The notes under the pieces: generated by a model
Told to the model about the DNA's origin: nothing
Databases searched by the model: none
What the model saw: only the letters and a program-made list of their open reading frames with translations
Program-made: the position numbers and the translations under genes
Assembly: GCA_945901825.1 (NCBI GenBank)
Contig: CAMDMC010000025.1
Coordinates: forward strand, 1-22,850
From: Bordetella parapertussis
GTDB lineage: Bacteria > Pseudomonadota > Gammaproteobacteria > Burkholderiales > Burkholderiaceae_A
Reading direction: 5' to 3'
Length of the DNA: 22,850 nucleotides
Shown: in pieces, positions 6,243 through 22,052 of the stretch
How positions within the stretch are numbered: position 1 is the stretch's first letter
Layout of the letters: the number at the start of each line of letters is the position of its first letter

Positions 6243-8126
6243 ATGCCAATGGCACACATTGAGATCAAGGTTCCGGACATTGGGGACTTTAAAGAGGTGG
6301 AGATTATTGAGGTGCTGGTTTCGCCGGGGGATTCGTTGTCGGTGGAGCAGAGTCTTATTACGGTGGAGAGTGACAAGGCCTCGATGGAGATACCGAGCTC
6401 GCATGCCGGGAAGCTTATTAGCTTGTCGGTGAAGGTGGGCGACAAGGTGGGTGAGGGGTCGGTGCTGGGCGTTATTGACGTTGCGCCGTCTGCCCTTGCT
6501 GCACCGCCTGCGGCGGAGACACCCACCTCAGCCGAAAAGATCACGTCTTCGGAGGCCATCTCAGCCTCGGCTTCGTTGACTTCAGCAGGAGCGAGGGCTG
6601 TTGGGACCGAGGGCGTGAAGTCCTCGCCCGAGGGGTCAATAGCCAGGGCTCCATCAGCAACGCTCGCCGCTGCCGCCTCCCACTCGCCTGTTCAAACATA
6701 CGTGGGCAAAGCCGACCTCGAGACCGAGATGCTCGTGCTTGGCGCAGGCCCAGGGGGCTACTCCGCCGCCTTCCGAGCCGCAGACCTTGGCATGGGCACG
6801 GTGTTGGTGGAACGTTTTGGCACGCTGGGTGGTGTCTGCCTGAATGTGGGCTGCATTCCGTCCAAAGCGCTGTTGCACGTGGCTGCGGTAATGGACGAGA
6901 CCAAGACCATGGCAGCCCACGGCATTTCTTTTGGTGAGCCTCAGGTCGACCTCGACAAGCTTCGTGCCTGGAAAGAAAAAGTAGTGGGTAAGCTCACCGG
7001 TGGCCTTTCCGGCATGGCCAAGGCCCGTAAGGTAACCGTGGTGCAAGGTGTAGGCCAGTTCCTTGACTCCTTTCATATCGAAGTCACGAACGACACAGGG
7101 GTCAAGCAGGTTATTAAGTTTGGAAAGGCCATTGTGGCGGCTGGCTCGGAGGCCGTGAAGCTTCCTTTCCTTCCGAATGACCCCCGCGTAATGACCTCCA
7201 CCGGCGCACTTGAGCTTCGCCAACAACCCAAGCGAATGCTTGTTATTGGCGGGGGCATTATTGGGCTAGAGATGGCCACTGTGTATTCCACGCTGGGTGC
7301 CCGGGTTGATGTTGTCGAGATGATGGACGGCCTGATGATGGGCGCGGACCGCGACCTTGTGAAGGTCTGGCAGAAGTTCAACGAGCATCGGTTCGACAAC
7401 ATTTGGTTGGGAAGTAAAACCGTTGGGGCCGAGGCTAAAGTCGATGGTATTTATGTTCGCTTTGAAGGTGGTAAGGCTCCGGCAGAGCCGCAACGCTACG
7501 ACCTTGTCCTGCAGGCGGTTGGTCGTAGGCCCAATGGCAAGGCTATTGCGGCAGAGCGTGCTGGTATTGAAGTGAACGACAGAGGCTTTCTAAATGTCGA
7601 TGCCCAGATGCGTACGACACAGAGCCATATTTTTGCGATTGGCGACCTTGTTGGCCAGCCCATGCTTGCCCACAAGGCTGTTCATGAAGGGCATGTGGCG
7701 GCTGAAGCCGCGGCGGGGCAGAAGTCCTTCTTCGATGCCCGTGTTATTCCCTCTGTTGCCTACACCGATCCGGAAGTGGCCTGGGTGGGCCTTACCGAAG
7801 AAGAGGCCAAGGCCAAGGGCGTAAAAATTGAAAAGGCTGTTTTTCCGTGGGCCGCCTCTGGCCGAGCCATTGCCAATGGCCGTGACGAAGGCTTCACTAA
7901 ATTATTGGTGGATGCCGAGAGCCACCTTGTTGTGGGTGGTGGCATTGTGGGTACCCATGCAGGTGACATGATTGGCGAGCTGGCTTTAGCCATTGAAATG
8001 GGCTGCGACCCAACCGACATTGGCAAGACCATTCATCCTCATCCCACCCTGGGCGAATCGATTGGCATGGTGGCCGAAGTCTTTGAAGGCATTTGTACCG
8101 ACTTGCCTCCAACAAAGAGACGTTAG
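6243..8126 (+). CDS. lpdA: Dihydrolipoamide dehydrogenase (E3) with N-terminal lipoyl domain
   Basis: 627 residues. Residues 3-80 form a biotinyl/lipoyl domain with K45 in [10 protein letters not shown] as the lipoylated lysine. Residues 81-155 form an Ala/Ser/Pro/Thr-rich flexible linker. The flavoprotein disulfide reductase core follows: FAD motif GAGPGG at 167-172, redox disulfide C199/C204 in [13 protein letters not shown], an NAD-binding GGGIIGLE, and the C-terminal HPHPTLGES with the catalytic His. It reoxidises dihydrolipoamide with NAD+. Lipoyl-E3 fusions are known from betaproteobacterial and neisserial pyruvate dehydrogenase complexes. The lipoyl segment uses codons (GAG, GTG, TCG, GGG, CCG) noticeably unlike the rest of the gene. 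Its stop overlaps the convergent argH stop by 4 bases. Confidence 0.96.
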
Positions 8127-9520
8127 ACCCCCAATAGCTTTTTGGCTTTGGCCGCCTGCAGCCTGACCTGGCTCGGTGCTGTTCCGCCCACATGGTCTCT
8201 GGCCTGCATGGCGCCTTCAGGATTCAGGACCGCATAAACATCGTCTTCAATAAGGCCCTGAAAGCTTTGCAGTTCAATCAAGGAAAGATCTTCCAGACCG
8301 CACTGCTTGTCTACGGCCTTACGCACGGCAAGGGCTACAGCCTCGTGGGCATCCCGAAAGGGTAGACCCTTCTTCACTAAATAGTCTGCCAGGTCGGTTG
8401 CGGTGGCATAGCCCTCAAGCACCGCAGCCCGCATGGCCTCAGCCTGGGGTTCGAGCCCCGCCACCATGTCAGCAAAGGCCTTCAAGGTATCGCGCACGGT
8501 ATCGGCCGTGTCGAACAAAGGCTCTTTGTCCTCTTGATTGTCCTTGTTGTAGGCAAGGGGCTGGCCTTTCATTAGCGTTAGCAGAGCCACCAAATGCCCG
8601 TTCACCCGACCAGTCTTGCCCCTGGCAAGTTCAGGCACGTCGGGGTTTTTCTTCTGGGGCATGATGGAGGAGCCCGTGCAGAAACGGTCGGGCAGCTTGA
8701 TGAAGCCGTAGCGGCTCGTCATCCAAAGAATAAGCTCCTCGGACAGTCGTGAGATATGGGTCATGATCAGCGCGCAGGCGGCGGTGAACTCAATGGCAAA
8801 GTCACGGTCGCTTACAGCATCAAGCGAGTTCTCGCACAGGGCCTCAAAGCCCAGCGTTTTTGCCACCCGTTCGCGGTCAATGGGGTAGCTTGTACCGGCA
8901 AGCGCGGCCGCACCCAGGGGCAGTCGGTTCACTCTGCGACGCGCGTCCACCAACCGCTCGTCGTCACGCGCAAACATGGCCTCGTAGGCGAGCATGTGAT
9001 GGCCAAAGCTTATGGGCTGGGCCACCTGAAGATGGGTAAAGCCCGGCATGATGGTCTCTGCATGGGCCTCGGCCTGGCTAATAAGAGCAAGCCTTAAGGC
9101 CTTGAGCTCCAAGCGAATGGCATCTATTTCTGCGCGCAGCCAAAGCCGAATGTCGGTGGCCACCTGGTCGTTGCGACTGCGTGCGGTGTGAAGTCGTTTG
9201 CCTGCATCGCCGACAAGATCGGTCAGCCGCTTTTCAATATTCAGATGGACATCTTCAAGGGCGATGGACCACTCAAAGCGGCCCGCACGAATGTCGTCCA
9301 AAATGGTGGCCATACCCTTCTCAATGGCCTGAAGGTCGTCTTTTGACAGCAGGCCCACATGGCAGAGCATCTCGGCATGGGCCAGTGAGCCCTGAATATC
9401 GACCTCGGCCAACCGCTGGTCAAAGCCTACCGAGGCAGTGTAGCGCTGCACAAGTTCGGAGACGGGCTCGGCAAAGCGCCCCGACCAGGCTTCATTTTTG
9501 TTGTTCAAGGAATTTGTCAT
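8123..9520 (-). CDS. argH: Argininosuccinate lyase
   Basis: 465 residues, the normal length. It splits argininosuccinate into arginine and fumarate, the last step of arginine synthesis. Diagnostic features are [13 protein letters not shown] at 111-123, TH at 162-163 (general acid/base region), and the fumarase/aspartase superfamily signature [12 protein letters not shown] at 283-294 carrying the catalytic Ser. The ATG at 9518-9520 lacks an evident ribosome site and is preceded by a 12-bp palindrome. In the ancestral order argH was almost certainly head-to-head with hemC, as shown by the hemC remnant starting ~27 bases upstream. Its stop overlaps that of lpdA. Confidence 0.97.
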
Positions 9521-9525
9521 GGCTG

Positions 9526-9537
9526 CATTACGTAATG
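9526..9537. repeat. 12-bp perfect palindrome upstream of argH
   Basis: CATTACGTAATG is its own reverse complement and lies 5 bases before the argH ATG. The right-hand junction copy has CATTACACTA instead, so the symmetry is not shared. It could be an operator or chance. Confidence 0.45.
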
Positions 9538-9546
9538 GCGGTGGGG

Positions 9547-9618
9547 GTGATTATCGCATCGCGTGAACGCCGTCTTACCGACTGGCGTGCTGCAGGTCGT
9601 TATCAGACACTTTTTCAG
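9547..9618 (+). pseudogene. Remnant of the hemC 5' end (about 24 codons)
   Basis: Read from the GTG at 9547 it gives [20 protein letters not shown] and continues TLFQ. It aligns with the start of the intact HemC at 10839 ([20 protein letters not shown] and on). IIASRE, RL, W and several later positions are identical, with one extra codon in the remnant. Similarity stops at about 9618, where ATPase-associated sequence begins. This is a dead hemC fragment at the original hemC position next to argH. Confidence 0.75.
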
Positions 9619-9630
9619 ATCAGGTATTTC

Positions 9631-9667
9631 CCTTGCAATTTGAATATTCAATGTTTAAATTGCAAGG
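9631..9667. repeat. Inverted repeat abutting the first ATPase start codon
   Basis: Perfect 11-base arms CCTTGCAATTT (9631-9641) and AAATTGCAAGG (9657-9667) are separated by 15 bases. The right arm ends directly at the ATG (9668). Nested inside is a 12-bp palindrome, TTGAATATTCAA, at 9640-9651. It could be an operator for the downstream protein, an mRNA hairpin, or an element boundary. Confidence 0.9.
9633..9661 (+). promoter_or_regulatory. Candidate promoter inside the inverted repeat
   Basis: TTGCAA at 9633-9638 and TAAATT at 9656-9661 are separated by 17 bases; each matches the sigma-70 consensus at 4 of 6 positions. Transcription would start about 7 bases on, at the ATG (9668), giving a leaderless message. 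That fits the lack of room for a Shine-Dalgarno site. Confidence 0.35.
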
Positions 9668-10807
9668 ATGTTTAAGCGCCTTGCCACCTCTAAGGTCGAT
9701 CGTGCCTTGGCTCGAAGCCCCGCCGTGGCAATCCTTGGCCCTCGACAGGTGGGCAAAACAACACTTGCCCGCGCTGCCGCCGCCGTGCGTCCGGAGTCGA
9801 TTTATCTTGATCTAGAGACCGCCGCCGATCAGGCCAAGCTCGCCGACCCGCCCCGATTTTTCGCCTCACGCCGCGGATCTCTGATGGTGCTTGACGAGGT
9901 GCAGAATCTGGCCGAACTTTTCTCGGAGTTACGCGCAGAGATCGATGCTGATCGCAGGGTAGGGCGGTTTCTTCTGCTTGGGTCGGCCTCTTTTCAGCTG
10001 CTTCGTCAGGCGCAGACTCTTGCCGGACGGCTCGAGGTCATTGACATGGCGCCGCTGCTCTTGCCCGAGGTCACGCAGCGGTTCGAAGATATCGAGCAGC
10101 TATGGGTGCGGGGAGGTTTTCCTTGCAGCTATACCCCACTGGCTGATGAAGACTCCTGGCAGTGGCGACAAGACTTCATTCGACATTTTTTGAATGTGGA
10201 TCTCCCCGCGCTTGGCATTGGCGTAGACCCTCCAAGCATGGGGCGATTCTGGCGCATGCTTGCGCATTTAAATGGACAACTTTTAAATGCCTCGGTTTTG
10301 TCGCGTTCTCTTGGGGTGTCTGCTCCCACCGTGAGCCGTTGGCTTGACCACCTGGTTGATGCGCTTGTTGTGCGCCGGCTTGAGCCTTGGCATGCAAATC
10401 TTGGAAAGCGACTGGTTAAATCTCCAAAGATCTACCTTCGCGACACGGGGCTCTTGCACGCACTACTTGGAATTCGTGACGCGGAGGCCTTGGCCGGTCA
10501 TCCTGCATCGGGCGCCTCTTGGGAAGGTTTTGTGGTGGAACAGATCTGCGCCCGATTACCTGCAGGAACACCCACCAACTTCTACCGTACCTCGGCCGGC
10601 GCCGAGCTGGACCTGGTTATCGAGCATGAAGGCCGGCTGGTCGGCATTGAGGCAAAGCTCTCGTCGGCGCCCACTGTGACCAAGGGATTTTGGCAGGCAT
10701 GTGAAGACGTCGGTGTGCACGAGGCATGGGTGGTTGCGCCGGTGCGCGAAGGCTGGCCCATTGGAGACAGTGCCCGCGTGGTGTCGCCAATGGAGTTACC
10801 AATTTAA
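9668..10807 (+). CDS. AAA ATPase with DUF4143 nuclease-like domain (copy 1)
   Basis: 379 residues of the COG1373 type (AAA_14 plus DUF4143). Walker A is GPRQVGKT at 24-31 and Walker B LMVLDE at 72-77, with a sensor-like LLLGSASFQ at 102-110. A winged-helix-like segment at about 204-235 contains [16 protein letters not shown]. The C-terminal part has WEGFVVEQI at 285-293, ELD at 313-315 and EAK at 328-330, matching an E...(E/D)xD...ExK PD-(D/E)XK nuclease pattern. The biological role of the family is not established. The gene sits between argH and hemC, flanked by junction repeats, directly behind an inverted repeat. Its stop codon (10805-10807) overlaps the first bases of the right repeat. 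It reads into hemC, 31 bases downstream. Confidence 0.9.
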
Positions 10808-10910
10808 TTTGTCATGGCTGCATTACACTAGAAGAATTATGTGGATTATTGCATCGCGTGAAAGCCGTCTTGCTATGTGGCAGGCCGAGCATGTCCAGGC
10901 TTTACTGCAG
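10806..10910. repeat. Right copy of the argH-hemC junction repeat
   Basis: It begins inside the ATPase stop codon. It carries 21 bases identical to the argH start region (the antisense ATG falls at 10813-10815 but opens no gene), then the true hemC start at 10839 and its first 24 codons. It pairs with 9511-9618. Confidence 0.85.
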
Positions 10911-11753
10911 AAGTCCTCAGGTCAGGCTGTGAGCATACTGGGCATGACCACCCGTGGCGACCAGATTCTTGACAAGACACTCTCCAAGGTGGGTGGCAAG
11001 GGGCTTTTTGTCAAAGAGCTTGAGACTGCGCTTGCCGAGGGCAGGGCGCATCTGGCCGTGCACTCCTTAAAAGACGTGCCCATGGAACTGCCCGAGGGCT
11101 TTGAACTTGCCGCTGTCATGCTGCGCGAAGACCCCCGTGACGCCTTTGTCTCCTCAGAGTTTGAAAGCCTGGAGTCTCTGCCCAATGGGGCTGTAGTGGG
11201 TACCAGCAGCCTTCGTCGTGAATCCCAGCTGCGTCATCGGTTTCCCCATCTCAAGATTGTTCCCCTGCGGGGCAATCTTGATACCCGGCTTGCCAAGCTC
11301 GACCGCGGCGAGATGCAGGCCATTATTCTTGCAGCAGCCGGTCTGAAGCGCCTTGGGTTGGTCGAACGTATTCGTCAAGTCATTGCCCCGGAGCTCATGC
11401 TTCCTGCTGCGGGGCAGGGCGCCTTGGGCATTGAGATTCGGGCAGGTGACCAGCCAAGCCATGCTCTGGTCTCTAGCCTTGCCGATGCAAATACCTTTGA
11501 AGAGGTTCGCGCCGAGCGGGCGGTATCGCGTGCCCTAGGCGGAAGCTGCCAGGTGCCGCTTGCAGCCTATTGCACACGTGAGGCCAATGGCCAGCTTCGC
11601 CTGCGCGCAAGGCTTGGCATGCCCGATGGCTCGGTTCTGCATGCCGTCGACCTTCAAGGGGAGCAGCCCGAGGCCCTTGGCATGCAGGCGGCGCAAGAAC
11701 TGCGTGGCATGGGGGCCGATACGATCATGGCGGCGCTTAATCAGGCCTCTTAA
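10839..11753 (+). CDS. hemC: Hydroxymethylbilane synthase (porphobilinogen deaminase)
   Basis: 304 residues. It polymerises four porphobilinogen units into hydroxymethylbilane in haem synthesis. Recognisable family segments are [22 protein letters not shown], the [11 protein letters not shown] loop, [26 protein letters not shown], and [12 protein letters not shown]. In the last, the Cys at about residue 237 carries the dipyrromethane cofactor. The start is the ATG at 10839, preceded by AGAAGA; the open frame upstream belongs to the ATPase region. It is the first gene of hemCDXY. The argH-hemC intergenic region it once used now lies on the far side of the ATPase gene, so its transcription may depend on that gene's promoter. 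Confidence 0.96.
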
Positions 11754-20827: not shown

Positions 20828-20862
20828 CCTGTAAAATGAAGAAAATTTCTTCATTTTACAGG
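20828..20862. repeat. Perfect 17-bp inverted repeat upstream of the second ATPase
   Basis: Arms CCTGTAAAATGAAGAAA (20828-20844) and TTTCTTCATTTTACAGG (20846-20862) are exact reverse complements around a single central base. The right arm ends 20 bases before the ATG at 20883. This is near-perfect cruciform or operator symmetry. The sequence is unrelated to the repeat before the first ATPase, but the placement is similar. Confidence 0.95.
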
Positions 20863-20876: not shown

Positions 20877-20886
20877 TCTTCGATGA
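20872..20886 (+). CDS. Possible four-codon leader (MLLR) overlapping the ATPase start
   Basis: ATG CTT CTT CGA TGA ends in an ATGA overlap with the ATPase ATG at 20883-20885. If transcription starts upstream, it could couple translation to the ATPase, which has no obvious ribosome site of its own. It could equally be chance. Confidence 0.15.
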   Translation: MLLR

Positions 20887-22048
20887 TCGCCCGCGACATT
20901 GAGAGCCCCCTTAAAAAGCTTGCCACAAAGTTTCCTGTCGTCACCCTCACGGGTCCAAGGCAGAGCGGTAAAACCACCTTGGCCAGGGCGTGCTTTCCTC
21001 ACCTGGCATACGTAAGCCTAGAAGACCCTGATACTCGGCGCTTTGCCTTGGACGACCCAAGAGGTTTCTTAGGGTCTTTATCAAGCGGGGCCATCCTCGA
21101 TGAAATTCAGCGGGCCCCAGAACTTTTGTCGTACCTCCAAACTCTGGTTGATCAAAACCCCATTGCAGGGCGATTCATCCTTACTGGAAGCCAACAGTTT
21201 GAGCTTCTGCGGCATGTCTCTCAGTCGCTTGCGGGTCGAACAGCCTTATTGAAGCTCCTTCCTTTCACACTCGGCGAATCGGTCCGCGCATGCGCGGGCC
21301 CTCCTTCGGTTAAGAGCCTCGAGGGAACCTTGTTTACAGGCTTCTATCCGCGAATTCACCATCGCGGCCTCGACCCCACGCAGGCACTTGGCGATTATTT
21401 TTCAACCTACATCGAGCGTGATCTTCGGCAGCTTGCTGCTGTCCATGATTTGCAAAGGTTTGAGCGCTTTGTGCGCCTCTGCGCTGGGCGTATTGGTCAG
21501 GTTCTGAATCTGGTTAGCCTGGGTAACGACGCGGGTGTCTCGCATGCAACTGCAAGGGCCTGGGTTGATTTATTGCAGACCAGCTACGTCCTGCACCTGC
21601 TTCCGCCTTGGTCCACTAACACCAGTAAGCGCCTCATTAAGTCTCCCAAGTTATTTTTTATCGATGTTGGTCTTGCTTCTTGGCTCTTGGGTATTCGGTC
21701 GGAAGACCAGTTAAAAAGAGATCCCTTGTATGGCTCACTCTTTGAGAACTTCGTTGTTATTGAGGCCATGAAAGACCGTCTAAACAGGGGGGAATCTGCC
21801 GAAATGTATTTTTATCGGGATTCCGAGGGTAACGAGATTGACCTGCTTCTTCCGCTGGGTCGGCAGGTTCATGCCATTGAGGTCAAGGCTGGCCAGACGG
21901 TTACAAACGACTATTTCCGGGGCCTGAGAAGCTTCGCAAATACATTCCCAGAGGCCTTAGCGGGAGGGGGAGTTGTGTTTGGTGGTGAGGCAGGACAGGC
22001 TCGAAGCACCTGGCCGGTTTACTCATGGAAAGCTCTCGCCCAACGCCC

Positions 22049-22052
<4 letters not shown>
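20883..22052 (+). CDS. AAA ATPase with DUF4143 nuclease-like domain (copy 2)
   Basis: 389 residues with the same architecture as the protein at 9668-10807 but only distantly similar. Walker A is GPRQSGKT at 24-31, Walker B AILDE at 70-74 and the sensor region FILTGSQQFELL at 98-109. A winged-helix-like segment lies at about 209-240 (NDAGVSHATARAWVDLLQTSYV). The nuclease-like C-terminal part has SLFENFVVIEAM at 285-296, EID at 318-320 and EVK at 333-335. The cellular role is unknown. It lies between the glnB terminator and the convergent smr gene, whose stop it overlaps by 4 bases. No good ribosome site precedes the ATG; a perfect inverted repeat does. Confidence 0.9.

Follow-up and report, generated by a model that had tools for sequence, protein, structure and literature searches.

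Insertion sequences, which are moved by DDE, Y1, serine or tyrosine transposases, are small single-gene units with precise edges, and their target is duplicated over a short fixed length. The unit considered here, composed of a gene for an ATPase with a DUF4143 domain and of a short dyad in front of it, resembles them in being small, single-gene and precisely edged and in having its target duplicated. Unlike them, it contains no transposase and no inverted repeat that pairs its ends, no multicopy spread of it was seen, and its duplications, instead of having a short fixed length, measure 34-269 bp where present and are absent at a second unit of the same stretch of DNA. The VapC toxin-antitoxin loci, whose proteins are unrelated, are like the family in the frequency of abutting repeats and in their minimal shared units.

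Genes of this type (AAA_14 with DUF4143; COG1373) have been designated PDC-S01, a phage-defence candidate of PADLOC in which an ATPase is fused to a PD-(D/E)XK member and which the consulted part of a 2026 survey ranks as the fourth most common defence in prokaryotes (PMC12988326). The same part of the survey describes several transfers of PDC-S01 between Bacteria and Archaea and a pending validation for most such candidates, but does not mention the unit edges, the start-codon dyad or insertion scars (PMC12988326), and in an excerpt of another work COG1373 is placed among the genes common to different genera (PMC10782964). Among the open-licence matches listed for the family and insertion-scar topics, no description of the mobility of such genes was found by title or abstract.

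The doubled argH-hemC junction

The window, that is, the whole analysed stretch of 22,850 nucleotides from Bordetella parapertussis, contains an intact argH for argininosuccinate lyase on the reverse strand (8123-9520; NCBIfam TIGR00838, E 1.2e-183) and an intact hemC for hydroxymethylbilane synthase on the forward strand (10839-11753; NCBIfam TIGR00212, E 3.8e-102 on the frame 10701-11753, with the start codon read by hand). Between them lies a forward-strand AAA_14/DUF4143 gene (9668-10807), and the sequence joining argH to hemC is present on both its sides. The left junction copy (9511-9594, firm to 9576 and weak to about 9594) consists of the first argH bases and a decayed hemC start, while the right copy (10806-10889) gives the hemC start and, with its first two bases, the last two of the TAA that stops the ATPase frame. 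Bases 9511-9531 recur exactly at 10806-10826, as an earlier note on this DNA had read from the sequence, and 9549-9576 agree with 10844-10871 at 26/28 positions, with the spacing of 1295 for both blocks; the 17-18 bases between the two conserved blocks, which the same note had described as non-matching, indeed agree at 3/17 only. Over 66 bp the repeat is firm, and the left copy of the relative M30B18, less decayed at its far end, allows it to be followed to about 84 bp (9594), which replaces the length of about 105 bases given earlier; the hemC-like fragment that had been placed at 9547-9618 is present in a shorter form, clear to 9576 and, via M30B18, to about 9594. The content reported between the copies, an inverted repeat and one gene without a transposase, was found again as a dyad and one recognisable gene (9668-10807), the only Pfam matches over the cut-off being AAA_14 and DUF4143.

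Eleven genomes of the same genus were searched. In nine of them argH is next to hemC and the gene is missing, the matches to the two gene starts overlapping or being 50-85 bp apart; one is occupied (M30B18, G006) and one (G001) gave no match. The junction is single in 5/5 of the gene-free relatives aligned, which supports the suggestion of the earlier note that the gene entered between these two genes and that the junction is doubled, and M30B18 has the whole arrangement, including both junction copies, at 93% identity over 3.9 kb. When the middle block is compared with the gene-free sites in G011 and G007, the left copies of the window and M30B18 agree at 3-8/17 positions and the right copies at 13-15/17; the two left copies have 12/17 in common. 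The right copy is the native version, because the right copies agree with the gene-free sites, and the insertion is older than the split of the window organism and M30B18, because the left copies share the changed block, so that a single insertion took place before this split, with the left hemC piece decaying afterwards. It is supported that one AAA_14/DUF4143 gene was inserted between argH and hemC, that the junction was doubled and that no known transposase was involved.

The middle block of the left copy (9532-9548), wholesale different from the native one and partly common to M30B18, is today in the upstream region of argH, whose leader it may have become by remodelling.

The ATPase protein, its dyad and the edges of the unit

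The gene encodes a protein of 379 aa, an AAA+ ATPase with PD-(D/E)XK-like residues in its C-terminal part, assigned to PDC-S01 by PADLOC. The Pfam models PF13635 and PF13173 were matched with 157.6 and 78.2 bits vs the curated cut-offs of 28.1 and 27, and both family proteins of the window match the PDC-S01 models (E 8e-86 and 4e-106). In an alignment of 45 proteins, the residues G29, K30, T32, D76, E77, E313, D315, E328 and K330 are invariant; the first five we take to be those of Walker A/B and the other four to be PD-(D/E)XK-like, which, in our reading of the alignment, may form a nuclease site. The protein is regarded as a putative ATP-dependent nuclease and plausibly as a defence protein, as the family name proposes. 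A sequence search of the PDB with the protein gave weak P-loop or partial matches only, and the archaeal Walker-type ATPases PABY2304 (2qen) and SSO1545 (2fna), at 19-20% identity, have matches that barely cover the window protein after residue 300.

An imperfect 37-bp dyad (9631-9667) ends right before the ATG and may hold the gene's own promoter, for which TTGCAA (9633-9638) and TAAATT (9656-9661), separated by 17 nt, are a candidate recognised by eye that failed the consensus scan; the family promoter consensus, also by eye, is TTGCAw-17-TAAAAT. In the family the dyad measures 37-43 bp and ends at the start codon. At least 12/17 positions are paired at the identical offset in 52/82 family genes, and such a score is attained anywhere near the start by 64/82 of the genes vs 6.7% of 820 random positions. 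For 64 selected sequences (63 distinct), in an alignment that omits 6/69 candidates (L060, L062, L083, L091, L092 and L104, some of them without a dyad there), 81.3% of cells are paired with G-U allowed, vs 72.7% in the shuffled sets (0/500) and 31-41% when the arms are slid, and the covariation score is 0.270 vs 0.124. With all 70 candidate sequences and Watson-Crick pairs only, the pairing is 73.3% vs 60.4% shuffled (0/500). The signal belongs mainly to the inner pairs 15-18/26-29, the outer pair columns 9/35 being uncoupled (CG 24, UG 15, UA 9, other 15). As single-stranded DNA, both dyads of the window fold as hairpins, with z of -4.8 and -7.8. Terminal inverted repeats were not found, since 0/7 inverted repeats in 9000-11500 pair both ends and the dyad stands at the left end only.

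The edges of the unit were read from copies that are at least 78% identical and stand between unrelated flanks. They form 37 pairs, which have members in common and so do not represent as many separate events; 38 other pairs, in which one flank is shared, were left uncounted. In 34/37 pairs the homology has its beginning at positions -36 to -60 relative to the ATG, and in 37/37 its end lies within -60 to +21 of the stop. These edges suggest that the family moves as a minimal unit, made of the dyad ending at the start codon and of the frame to its stop; they could have resulted from later trimming of useless flank. A retrocopy made from the gene's own mRNA was rejected because the unit contains the putative promoter.

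Several further observations concern the same borders. A related unit, 82% identical, stands on the other side of argH in G002, beside a lipoamide-dehydrogenase-like gene, and has in common with the window unit the stretch upstream of the dyad (9611-9630), the homology of both units starting at 9611. In the related unit pairs L034/L035, L050/L051 and L098/L100, only one of the flanks is conserved, the other changing at the unit edge, and these edges look as if they were repeated breakpoints. An extra copy of the family dyad was seen about 200 nt past the ATPase stop in L063 (6357-6398) and L066 (about 6361-6402), with no second family frame of at least 200 aa called behind it.

The second AAA_14/DUF4143 gene of the window (20883-22052, forward strand) lies between glnB (P-II) and an Smr-domain gene and has a dyad of 35 bp (20828-20862), which, compared with M30B18, shows matched changes on both arms within a region that is 95% identical. 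This second unit is missing at the glnB/Smr site in G007 and G011, and no long duplication was found at the site. Since the second unit and most of the tested family members are without one, the duplication is either not obligatory or fast-decaying.

Repeats at other family sites and around VapC modules

Occupied and empty forms were obtained as pairs for two sites, argH-hemC and erpA-argC. At the latter (Fe-S_biosyn and semialdehyde-dehydrogenase domains), a 37-bp repeat that starts from the ATPase stop codon was found in G007 and G006, and the same sequence is single-copy in G002 and G003. The erpA/argC unit is frame-broken in M30B18 (L141, G006:C5) and open in G007 (L142, G007:C249), with a second family gene about 3.7 kb away in both. 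In Limnohabitans Bal53, a 68-bp repeat takes in the end of a PIN-domain (vapC-like) gene as well as the first bases of the right flank; its right-flank portion is single in congeners, G353 and G363 among them, that lack the PIN gene at this place, and in three Limnohabitans congeners with the ATPase at this site the left copy of the PIN gene is missing, so the history is not simple. The start of a branched-chain amino-acid permease gene is repeated over 46 bp in Thermodesulfovibrionia, and a cNMP-binding regulator gene over 269 bp in G071, where the left copy is open to its end and the right copy is a remnant followed by the apparent start of another family gene. A 58-bp repeat of the 3' end of tRNA-Ser in G027 is not abutting, being 388 nt upstream of the start. 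A comparison with Rfam at the gathering threshold gave a tRNA only. At L256, L211 and L218 there are repeats of 104, 91 and 34 bp, which may be dispersed ones. An overlap of the repeat with the stop codon of the ATPase gene occurs in the window and at L142 and L218.

Other flanks were less informative. At six sister-genome loci searched with the flanks of L264, the right side was not orthologous and no full empty site was obtained; no empty site was worked out for L061 in six genomes, and among 40 Limnohabitans genomes a flank related to the left one of L273 occurred in two, with no clear empty site. The plasmids of Thermus thermophilus contain many partial DUF4143 copies (about 515 and 173 bp, 95-98% identity), among which no clean occupied/empty pair was worked out; for the DUF4143 gene TT_P0211 of this species, the consulted portion of one study gives a fold change of 6.6 when plasmid DNA is present (PMC4406477). 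Three other plasmid loci had no repeat of note. By judgement, the repeat cases L226, L215, L207/L153 and L217 were doubted or dropped as looking like dispersed repeats, and L063/L066 as a dyad copy or a distant repeat.

Abutting repeats scoring at least 20 occur at 10/198 family loci (8 after the removal of L344, a dispersed repeat, and L092, copies of its own dyad; 34-269 bp), at 5/105 VapC loci, uncurated, and at 0/365 of the other neighbouring genes; flank-to-flank repeats with such a score occur at 19/184 family loci vs 2/366 neighbouring genes, a clear excess. The VapC control comprised 110 VapC/PIN loci as small accessory modules (L380-L489), 105 of them usable, and its repeats, which may likewise be dispersed ones, had no curation like that of the family, only a word search being made for seven repeats in VapC loci. 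In equal windows, repeats were counted at 22/195 family vs 9/105 VapC loci (Fisher P 0.55). An example is the abutting repeat of L383 at 1062-1131 and 1899-1968; in L485, a larger stretch may have been duplicated in tandem. Among the VapC loci, the part common to five pairs of 86-93% identity is 679-766 bp long, roughly the size of the two-gene module, although three of the five come from one trio and one pair shares an extra 121-bp piece beside the module.

Family-specific transposition, which had been favoured at first on the basis of 19/184 vs 2/366, was demoted by this control (P 0.55; 10/198 vs 5/105). Because the VapC modules show both, the scar and the minimal unit are not peculiar to DUF4143, and the doubled-junction signature is not specific to the ATPase/nuclease family.

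Origin of the insertion and its meaning

Established are a single ancestral insertion, the doubled junction with the native right copy, a defined unit, its recurrence at unrelated sites and the like pattern around VapC modules. In our opinion, held with somewhat better than even confidence, a minimal unit of about 1.2 kb (the start-codon dyad and the AAA_14/DUF4143 gene) was captured at the argH-hemC junction via a generic, transposase-free process. Such a capture is favoured over a possible transposition driven by the unit's own nuclease-like domain, because the VapC control shows abutting repeats equally often. The capture would have occurred once, in the common ancestor of the window organism and M30B18. 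Staggered nicks or template switching would have joined the two ends of the unit to the two target strands, at points separated by about 84 bp, and the stretch between these points would have been doubled by fill-in. We infer an uncoupled joining of the unit ends to strands that were broken or nicked tens to hundreds of bases apart, most likely through a generic process of the host or of DNA uptake and not through the ATPase protein. The left copy would have been kept by argH and the right one by hemC, and both neighbours would have survived because each kept one intact junction copy; the ATPase stop codon would have been completed by the target, and the unused left hemC start would have decayed later.

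The best surviving alternative, which is rather unlikely, is an autonomous mobile element, whose PD-(D/E)XK-like nuclease, guided by the AAA+ domain and through recognition of its own dyad, would nick two distant points, insert a copy and leave long variable duplications. The invariant Walker residues together with E313, D315, E328 and K330 in the 45 proteins, the dyad fixed at the start codon with its pairing kept by compensating changes (73.3% vs 60.4%), the sharp unit edges and the long duplications at unrelated sites are consistent with such an element. However, equally frequent abutting repeats and similarly minimal units are shown by the VapC modules, no near-identical copies were found within one genome, the best protein identity being 59% among 66 family genes of eight genomes with some family matches left out, and a conserved right-end sequence was not noticed, though it had no dedicated search.

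Less probable still is that the junction was tandemly duplicated first and the gene landed between the copies later. The order of events is unreadable from the present sequence alone, which leaves room for such a course, but a doubled hemC start without the ATPase gene, the finding that the earlier note had set against the insertion, was not seen in the five gene-free relatives aligned, and the repeat abuts the unit at several unrelated sites. The suggestion that the two junction copies come from different strains, by recombination of a foreign argH-ATPase-hemC segment into the ancestor, was prompted by the middle block, which differs between the copies (3/17), and is now very unlikely: the relatives G011 and G007 are about as close on the argH side (84% and 83% identity) as on the hemC side (82% and 79%), the changed block is already present in the left copy of M30B18, the right copies match the gene-free relatives, and the foreign donor's own duplication would need explaining. 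Of the two options left by the earlier note, the old duplication therefore fits, and the two strains are unneeded, as M30B18 has both copies and the flanks are equally close. That the repeat arose by chance or as an assembly artefact can be practically dismissed, no point in its support having been found, the flank-to-flank local alignment scoring 29 vs a maximum of 23 among 1925 random pairs of window stretches, and the separate assembly of M30B18 having the same arrangement with 93% identity.

Returning to the generic capture, we tentatively suggest, at a confidence well below even, that the PDC-S01 genes and the VapC toxin-antitoxin pairs share one unrecognised integration route, by which a promoter-to-stop unit is taken up, tens to hundreds of target bases are duplicated and both border genes are spared.

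If the PDC-S01 genes move as small units, mobility and not defence may account for part of their abundance and of their occurrence in islands, and the arguments of guilt by embedding would be weakened. The long duplicated gene border is a scar that is usable to count the captures and to date them roughly, and it makes the old question of how single genes spread without transposases directly testable. The VapC control makes this question broader than the DUF4143 family, and the similar scars found beside other small accessory genes may be the trace of a general, so far unrecognised route of entry into genomes.
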